Shown here in pieces: positions 1 through 25,945 of a stretch of 64,000 bases of DNA. Origin of the DNA: an uncultured Eubacteriales bacterium. GTDB lineage: Bacteria; Bacillota; Clostridia; Oscillospirales; CAG-272. Position numbers and translations under genes: made by a program. Where the stretch lies: the NCBI GenBank assembly GCA_948467545.1, contig CAOKER010000014.1, positions 1-64,000 on the forward strand, in the 5' to 3' direction. Numbering within the stretch: the first letter of the stretch is position 1; each line of letters opens with the position of its first letter. The notes below the pieces were generated by a model. That model saw only the letters and a program-made list of their open reading frames with translations, searched no databases and was not told where the DNA came from.

Positions 1-32
1 AAATACAGAATAAAATGTGTTATAATGTATCA

Positions 33-131
33 CATGTCGGCGCCGGGAATCCGGTGGGTATTTATGTGTCCTTTGCACATGAATATCAGGAGATGCTGAG
101 GGCTAAATCAGCAAATCTGCCGGCGTTTTTT
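33..131 (+). ncRNA. Predicted structured small RNA, copy 1
   Basis: The start is inferred about 7 nt after TATAAT (21-26) and the end at the T-run (126-131). The closing stem is CGCCGG (41-46) with CCGGCG (120-125), plus a G-U pair. Inside it, an 11-bp hairpin (58-68 with 76-86, including two G-U pairs) has a 7-nt loop, and a 6-bp hairpin TGCTGA/TCAGCA (94-99 with 108-113) has an 8-nt loop. This makes a three-way junction ending in a terminator-like T-run. CCGG at 43-46 can pair instead with CCGG at 51-54, a competing hairpin that would open the closing stem. I do not recognise the family. The -35 box would lie across the window edge. Confidence 0.55.
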
Positions 132-295
132 AATGTCCTGCCGGTTCGGACGGTATTAAATTTTATTTGGACTAAAGGTTTAAGAATCCCAAAACTTTAA
201 AATAGGGGGTAGGATTTTAAAGCCATCATATTTGAAATCATACATGAAGATTTAGAAAATCCGATTCCTAAATTCGAGTTTTTTCGGCAAACCTA

Positions 296-324
296 TTGAA
301 ATACAGAATAAAATGTGTTATAAT
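296..324 (+). promoter_or_regulatory. Sigma-A type promoter of small RNA copy 2
   Basis: TTGAAA (296-301), a 17-bp spacer and TATAAT (319-324), close to the vegetative consensus. Transcription would start near 331, exactly at the 5' side of the predicted RNA fold. Confidence 0.75.
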
Positions 325-330
325 GTATCA

Positions 331-430
331 CATGTCGGCGCCGGGAATCCGGTAGGTATTTATGTGTGTCGTTCACATGAATATCAGGAGATGCTGAGGG
401 CTAAGTCAGCAAATCTGCCGGCGCTTTTTA
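331..430 (+). ncRNA. Predicted structured small RNA, copy 2
   Basis: This copy has the same three-stem fold as copy 1. The closing stem is a full 7 bp here (GCGCCGG with CCGGCGC), where copy 1 has a G-U at the outer pair. The 11-bp hairpin is unchanged, but its 7-nt loop is TGTCGTT instead of TCCTTTG. The last loop differs by one base. A T5 run (425-429) follows the closing stem, as in an intrinsic terminator. Function is unknown; candidates are a trans-acting RNA or a ligand-binding RNA with its own terminator. Confidence 0.6.
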
Positions 431-544
431 ATGTCCTGCCGGTTCGGACGGTATTTAACTGATATTCAGTATAGCACATTGGAAAATATTTGTCAAGATA
501 TTTTGCAAAAAAATACCGAAAAAAATCGAATGATTTTAAAACAA

Positions 545-598: not shown

Positions 599-613
599 AA
601 ATGTTGTAAAATT

Positions 614-738
614 CTAAAGTATCTAAAGATGCTAAAGTTTCTGAATATGCTAAAGTCTCTGAAGATGCTAAAATCTCTAAAAATTCTAAAGTCTCTGAAG
701 ATGCTAAAGTCTATAAAGCCTCTGAAGCCTCTAAAGAT
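614..738. repeat. Degenerate 9-bp tandem repeat, about 14 units
   Basis: The units follow CTAAAGNNN / CTGAAGNNN with a strict 9-bp period. The tract lies between the end of the membrane protein gene and its terminator and touches the last codon of that gene. It can be read as a (Leu-Lys)-rich peptide on the plus strand, but no ribosome binding site precedes such an ORF, so I treat it as non-coding. Similar short-period expansions occur inside several genes of this window. Confidence 0.85.
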
Positions 739-11569: not shown

Positions 11570-11645
11570 TGGTCTGAGTGACTGGACTTGAACCAGCGGC
11601 CTCTACCACCCCAAGGTAGCGCGCTACCAACTGCGCCACACCCAG
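11570..11645 (-). tRNA. tRNA-Pro (anticodon GGG), CCA encoded
   Basis: The full cloverleaf can be drawn on the minus strand. The acceptor is CTGGGTG/CACTCAG with one G-U. The D-arm is GCGC...GCGC. The anticodon stem CTACC/GGTAG closes the loop TTGGGGT, so the anticodon is GGG. The T-arm is GCTGG/CCAGT with TTCAAGT, and ACCA is encoded at the 3' end. It has its own terminator. The adjacent integrase suggests that its 3' end was used as an attachment site. Confidence 0.93.
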
Positions 11646-25739: not shown

Positions 25740-25767
25740 TTGACAAATAAAAAATAAGTGGTATAAT
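25740..25767 (+). promoter_or_regulatory. Promoter of rplJ-rplL
   Basis: TTGACA (25740-25745), a 16-bp spacer and TATAAT (25762-25767). Confidence 0.85.
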
Positions 25768-25769
25768 AG

Positions 25770-25945
25770 AAAAAGTAGTCCAAAGACAGCAGGTATAAAT
25801 CCGACGCAGATTGTGACGGATTTTGTAAAGCTTTCCTGCCGAGGAGAATGATAAAAGGTTTTGCGGAGCATTCTGTTCCGACGCATTTTATTGACGTATT
25901 CCCGTGGCGTGTCTTTGACACGGCGCGTTTTTTGTTTGCTGGGCT
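25770..25945 (+). ncRNA. Ribosomal protein L10 leader
   Basis: The segment has AAAGACAGCAGGT (25782 onward) pairing with TTCCTGCCGAGGAGAAT (about 25834-25850), the kink-turn motif bound by the L10-L12 complex. A later hairpin CGTGTC/GACACG with GCGTTTTTTG (about 25909-25935) looks like an attenuator. The leader lets L10 repress its own operon. The position directly before rplJ supports the call. Confidence 0.82.

Follow-up and report, generated by a model that had tools for sequence, protein, structure and literature searches.

Introduction

In ColE1 RNA I/RNA II and in CopA/CopT, short apical loops decide recognition, and changes in these loops create new specificities. In attenuators of the pT181 type, an antisense RNA and its target leader are transcribed from convergent promoters and meet through kissing hairpin loops, the outcome lies between a terminator and an antiterminator, and specificity resides in the loops (PMC4878617). 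Two further arrangements are known among small RNAs (sRNAs): CJnc190 of Campylobacter jejuni is a small RNA with a second one, CJnc180, encoded antisense to it (PMC8687705), and sibling sRNAs are two or more related RNAs with a common recognition sequence (PMC4211561). Here we describe a structured RNA, RNA B, which is encoded in tandem at the start of a 64,000-nucleotide stretch of DNA from an uncultured Eubacteriales bacterium. This stretch, the window, comprises the first 64 kb of contig CAOKER010000014.1 (C14; genome G000, 2.47 Mb in 30 contigs). At related loci a second, differently built RNA, RNA A, is located upstream of RNA B, and a predicted convergent promoter, PB*, follows RNA B on the minus strand. 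Judging from the sequences, we tentatively propose that the RNA B of the window is part of such a multi-RNA locus, in which A, B and antisense B would recognize each other through locus-specific loop-loop contacts, in a manner likened to plasmid antisense attenuators.

The likeness to the pT181-type attenuators is that the predicted PB* transcript would be antisense to RNA B in its 5′ part, where both promoters are predictions. The A/B loci differ from these attenuators in that no rep gene is located downstream, the next element being the antisense of A followed by the upstream RNA, and in that they possess a second, differently built RNA bearing the same two loops. They are, moreover, chromosomal, many with different loops, and we only infer attenuation. 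Unlike ColE1 and CopA/CopT, they have no replicon, they combine two sense scaffolds with one antisense RNA, and no replication primer was found. The CJnc190/CJnc180 pair, in turn, has neither a second loop-matched RNA nor a family of loop-rewritten loci, whereas sibling sRNAs differ from the A/B loci because in the latter the scaffolds are different, only the loops are shared, and the loops vary by locus. The A/B system thus works like antisense/kissing-loop control, yet it belongs to none of the families tested. To our knowledge, a protein-free circuit with a two-loop barcode has no described precedent. A literature search, which most subscription papers fell outside, returned no description of the A/B/PB* arrangement, and the candidate list of PMC8040213 could contain single RNAs of it without the loop rule.

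Results

The two units of the window (positions 1-160 and 299-458) are 94% identical and have a period of 298 bp, the contig edge cutting off the -35 box of unit 1. On the plus strand, units 1 and 2 fold at -52.1 kcal/mol (z -4.4) and -47.9 kcal/mol (z -3.0), respectively, whereas the minus strand of unit 2 folds at only -33.3 kcal/mol. In RNA B, a closing stem (P1) encloses the hairpins P2 (CCGG-GAAT-CCGG), P3 and P4, and behind it come a U-run and a small 3′ hairpin. The features of this region are as follows.

21..26, plus strand: -10 box TATAAT of unit 1 (sequence)
31..157, plus strand: RNA B of unit 1, P1-P4 four-way junction with U-run and 3′ hairpin (covariance model R1, 133.9 bits; fold z -4.4)
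69..75, plus strand: loop 1 (in P3) of unit 1, TCCTTTG, the same as loop 1 of RNA A on contig C19 (loop comparison)
101..107, plus strand: loop 2 (in P4) of unit 1, GGCTAAA, where RNA A on C19 carries GGCTAAG (loop comparison)
161..298, no strand: inter-unit spacer; a 95% identical spacer is present at the end of contig C19 (sequence comparison)
272..287, plus strand: ATTCGAGTTTTTTCGG, 5′ of the sense promoter, with an inverted copy at 516-531, 5′ of the antisense promoter (sequence repeat)
296..324, plus strand: predicted sense promoter of unit 2, TTGAAA (296-301)-17-TATAAT (319-324) (promoter scoring)
329..455, plus strand: RNA B of unit 2 (covariance model R1, 131.0 bits; fold z -3.0)
367..373, plus strand: loop 1 of unit 2, TGTCGTT, for which no RNA A match was found (loop comparison)
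399..405, plus strand: loop 2 of unit 2, GGCTAAG, the same as loop 2 of RNA A on C19 (loop comparison)
433..449, plus strand: 3′ hairpin GTCC..GGAC with GCCGG in its loop (kept in most copies)
468..496, minus strand: predicted convergent antisense promoter PB*, TTGACA-17-TATACT, directed leftwards across both units (promoter scoring)

The ATTCGAGTTTTTTCGG repeat arrangement recurs at most loci of the same genome, and the repeat and its inverted copy are a possible shared upstream element of the sense and antisense promoters.

A DNA search located places related to the window units on contigs C6, C19, C16, C8, C25, C2, C5, C13 and C18, many of them at contig ends, as expected for repeats that break the assembly. 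The covariance model R1, which was built from 13 copies, matched 15 times in this genome, in 10 of the 395 genomes of the family (a patchy distribution, where chance explains the match in G253 and perhaps the two weakest ones) and in four more families of this order. Model R3, representing the RNA B of the type-2 loci described below, added one further family within the order and one outside it. Across 35 distinct R1 matches, 94% of the cells pair and two-sided changes occur at 26 of the 33 pairs, compared to a mean of 11.7 in shuffled controls, none of which (0 of 500) reached 26; in slid controls the pairing fell to 32-43%. The alignment was fitted to the model, which biases it in the model's favour, yet the controls fall far short of the effect, and a plain sequence alignment of the 13 copies has two-sided changes at 6 pairs. 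Furthermore, in the best 30 matches G-U pairs outnumber A-C combinations by 133 to 14, which shows that the plus strand encodes the structured RNA; the minus strand was ruled out as the structured strand by folding energy and by these counts. Searches of RNA A and RNA B against Rfam (Rfam 15), permissive thresholds included, returned chance matches only, none of them credible. The repeats of the window belong to a bacterial RNA family not catalogued before.

Inspection by eye led us to discard the R1 match in G253 (L065) and the matches of model R2 in G292, G208 and G267, which look like chance and fall within or next to ordinary coding sequence.

A preliminary description, made from the letters of the window, had proposed two promoter-driven tandem copies of a structured RNA of no listed family, in which the 7-nt loop at 69-75 (TCCTTTG, versus TGTCGTT at 367-373) is rewritten while its stem is kept. 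The TATAAT boxes of both units and the rewritten loop on a kept stem were confirmed, and the strong covariation, the conservation of the predicted sense promoter and the Rfam result support the rest. The covariance-model search found homologues in the same genome, family and order, with compensation at paired positions. The proposed three-way junction gave way to a four-way junction of a closing stem and three hairpins, and a fold switch through the CCGG hairpin was not supported. That description could not reveal the remarkable features, namely the convergent promoter on the minus strand, RNA A further upstream and the matching of the loops.

RNA A is located upstream of B in the loci that we call type 1, has its own predicted promoter of the TTGACA-17-TTAAAAT type, and has a closing stem followed by a U-run. 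Two-sided changes were observed at 12 of its 28 pairs, shuffled and slid controls being far lower, and G-U pairs exceed A-C combinations by 112 to 8, indicating that its sense strand is structured. A and B are differently built scaffolds. The named holders of RNA A are metagenome-assembled genomes of gut Clostridia, including Candidatus Geddesella stercoravicola and Candidatus Avispirillum faecium, and a search of viral contigs for the RNA A pattern gave no exact match.

Comparison of the two RNAs revealed that, at most type-1 and type-2 loci, they share the bases of two hypervariable apical loops, which vary by locus. Loop 1 of B recurs in full upstream on the same strand at 17 of 27 loci, versus a mean of 2.06 and a maximum of 7 in 2000 permutations, and loop 2 recurs at 21 of the 27 (permuted mean 8.2, maximum 15). 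On the opposite strand, loop 1 was found at 1 locus and loop 2 at 6. The 27 loci are partly non-independent, with several per genome, though their loops mostly differ, and one of the 17 loop-1 matches (in G357) is to a copy outside A, the true A loop being one base off. Both loops are common to A and B in L031 (TGTCGAG and TACCACC), and loop 1 is common to both in L063 (TTTATGC), L071 (TTCGTTG), L074 (TCTCTAG), L079 (TTGATCC), L080 (TTGTTTC), L081 (TTACGAC) and Geddesella (TTTCGTC). The stems around the matched loops are different: GTTG/CAAC in A versus ATGTG/CACAT in B, and GTA/TAC versus GTG/CAC in type 2. In the array of G478, three B units with differing stems have loop 2 in common, and two of them loop 1. 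Two type-1 loci found in an order-wide search after the rule had been stated, L143 and L144, match in both loops.

Type 2 comprises seven loci from four other genera (g3, g32, g37 and g66), with a diverged B between the same two promoters. The upstream RNA of these loci has no detectable similarity to A, yet both B loops recur in it, either exactly or slightly changed. Given as loop 1/loop 2, the latter read by eye, the pairs are:

CCGGTTT/TTGCGAG, CCTCGTT/TTGCGAG, CTTTCC/CGCTAA, CTTTTA/TTGGTGG
CCTCTA/CGGYCAA, CTTTCAT/TTGCC, CCTTCTT/TTGCA

For the window, the cognate RNA A is located on contig C19 and carries TCCTTTG/GGCTAAG. The last 18 bases of C19 are the first 18 of the window, and the end of C19 also carries the unit spacer, 95% identical to window positions 166-316. 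C19 therefore probably precedes C14, the array probably extends beyond the window, as had been suspected, and the match of both loops would hold for the window via this inferred join only.

In nearly every array, PB* (TTGACA-17/18-TATAAT, minus strand) directly follows the last RNA B unit. At least 10 of 12 consensus bases are present in 81% of 37 units, versus 5% of shuffles, and most sites are perfect TTGACA-17/18-TATAAT although the spacers differ. Transcription from PB* through antisense B is predicted from this promoter sequence. In most single-unit loci a minus-strand terminator is located 200-460 nt downstream of PB*, between A and B, and it resembles P3 of RNA B (summed longest match 144, versus a null of 100 with a maximum of 114). 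The features that follow the terminator on the minus strand are the antisense of A and then the upstream RNA. A conserved downstream gene on the minus strand was not found; some loci have a gene there (G008/L097; G228) and others none.

Discussion

The sense strand of type-1 loci was searched for the reverse complement of loop 1 and almost none was found. A third sense-strand partner was therefore rejected, which leaves the minus-strand PB* transcript as the evident complementary partner. In the mechanism that we propose, this transcript would be antisense B, ~200-460 nt long in single-unit loci, bearing both complementary loops and serving as common partner, with A in trans and B in cis each kissing its loops. 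The PB* terminator, as it repeats the strands of B P3, is a candidate attenuator, and a terminator/antiterminator competition is possible as in pT181 (PMC4878617). The transcript's own anti-P3 could open the terminator, and readthrough would reach the antisense of A as long as neither A nor B occupies the loops. The outcome would be a self-contained, locus-specific RNA switch with the level of RNA A as its output. Modelling has indicated that convergent transcription combined with antisense pairing can give switch-like behaviour (PMC4519249). Slightly more tentative is the idea that two unlike scaffolds and an antisense RNA make up a protein-free recognition system with a common two-loop "barcode", rewritten at each locus, such that many paralogous copies in one genome may stay orthogonal.

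Several observations weigh against this proposal. The B-like RNAs of f2, f13, f18, f23 and f51 retain the P1-P4 architecture and have no upstream loop copy within 1.5 kb, so the loop rule is not universal, and G022_34 has mismatched A and B loops. Seven units, C5 included, score below 10 for PB* and are without a good promoter: they comprise the inner unit of the window array and that of the C6 array, the first Geddesella unit, L071, and three units in C2, C5 and C13. The minimum-energy fold retains the terminator in most leaders tested and a competing fold was obtained only in G008b; folding thus supports the terminator/antiterminator competition only in part. Lastly, four of five single-base differences between A and B loops fit a partner that is complementary to A and wobbles with B. 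This counts slightly against antisense B being the only partner, but so few differences cannot decide the matter.

The main rival explanation is that A and B are sibling sRNAs whose loops are seeds for the same, locus-specific mRNA target or targets, with PB* merely antagonizing B, as CJnc180 does with CJnc190. Both ingredients are known, sibling sRNAs (PMC4211561) as well as cis-encoded antagonists (PMC8687705). In addition, loop 1 of type 2 is C/U-rich (CCTTCTT, CTTTCC, CCTCGTT), as expected for seeds directed at ribosome-binding sites, and the same four of five single-base differences tolerate a common third partner. However, the type-1 loops do not resemble ribosome-site seeds, new targets would be needed per locus and even between sister genomes (the exchanged loops of L031 and L061), and no reason is provided for the strict conservation of PB* and its terminator. 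We regard mRNA seeding as somewhat less likely than the proposed mechanism.

Less probable again is a selfish RNA-only module of an addiction- or incompatibility-like nature, in which A is harmful or replicative, antisense B neutralizes it via the loops, and rewriting prevents cross-neutralization. The patchy occurrence (in ~10 of the 395 genomes of the family), the many copies in genomes that do have the locus (15 here, 9 in G022) and the locus-specific loops would suit such a module, but no protein, transposase or terminal repeats were found at the loci, and the module does not account for a sense B, which would titrate the antidote. That the shared loops arose incidentally, through gene conversion or copying between the two RNAs and with no role in pairing, appears very improbable: although loops seem to have been exchanged between the A copies of G008 and G357, the identity ends at the loop bases while the stems differ, and tracts so short and exact are unexpected. 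The preliminary model of a single small RNA that switches folds can practically be dismissed. Its (predicted) promoter, structure and tandem copies are real, but the CCGG hairpin, supposed to compete with the closing stem, belongs to the conserved fold as its P2 and is paired in 99.4% of cells across homologues.

The A/B/PB* loci of gut Clostridia have the look of a recognition and switching circuit made of RNA only. They contribute two RNA families that show covariation and are missing from Rfam, together with a clear sequence rule, namely two loops common to two different RNAs and rewritten per locus. If the loops do pair as proposed, nature has evolved many mutually orthogonal RNA switches within single genomes. 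Orthogonal variants of such attenuators have been hard to engineer (PMC4878617); from the natural loop pairs one would learn how specificity arises. The loop rule is directly testable, because the genomes supply both matched and mismatched loops.

Additional observations

The sister genomes G008 and G357 possess a second RNA A copy downstream of PB* (in L031 and L061). Loop 1 of the upstream and downstream A copies is exchanged between the two genomes (TGTCGAG/TTTACGG), and B follows the upstream A.

A third conserved and apparently structured stretch, "RNA C" (AATAAGCTAACTYCCGGAACAAAA...ATTGTGGNCTATCGC), is located upstream of A in L031 and L035 (both reverse complement), L089, L097 and L058 (C19), and has no Rfam match. 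Pairing is possible between its 3′ end and the tail behind A (AUAGACUGACAG/UGUCAGUCUAU), both sides being changed in L089, and the type-2 loci contain a similar AATAAGCNCYCCCGAAACAAAA. Beyond the RNA cluster, on the minus strand past RNA C, L031 (G008) and L097 (Avispirillum) encode uncharacterized proteins that resemble each other by eye; another similar pair is present at two G228 loci (L141 and L142), and other loci have none.

In L071, ~1.5 kb into the locus, an insertion of ~140 bp interrupts the -10 box of the antisense promoter, restoring TATAAT on the B side and not the -35 box. Directly behind the antisense promoter, window positions 599-738 consist of degenerate 18-bp tandem repeats (AAGTCTCTGAAGATGCTA), and other simple repeats follow RNA B in C5, C13 and L089. 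Elsewhere in the window, Rfam identified an ordinary ribosomal protein L10 leader (25762-25942, plus strand) and an ordinary tRNA (11573-11645, minus strand).
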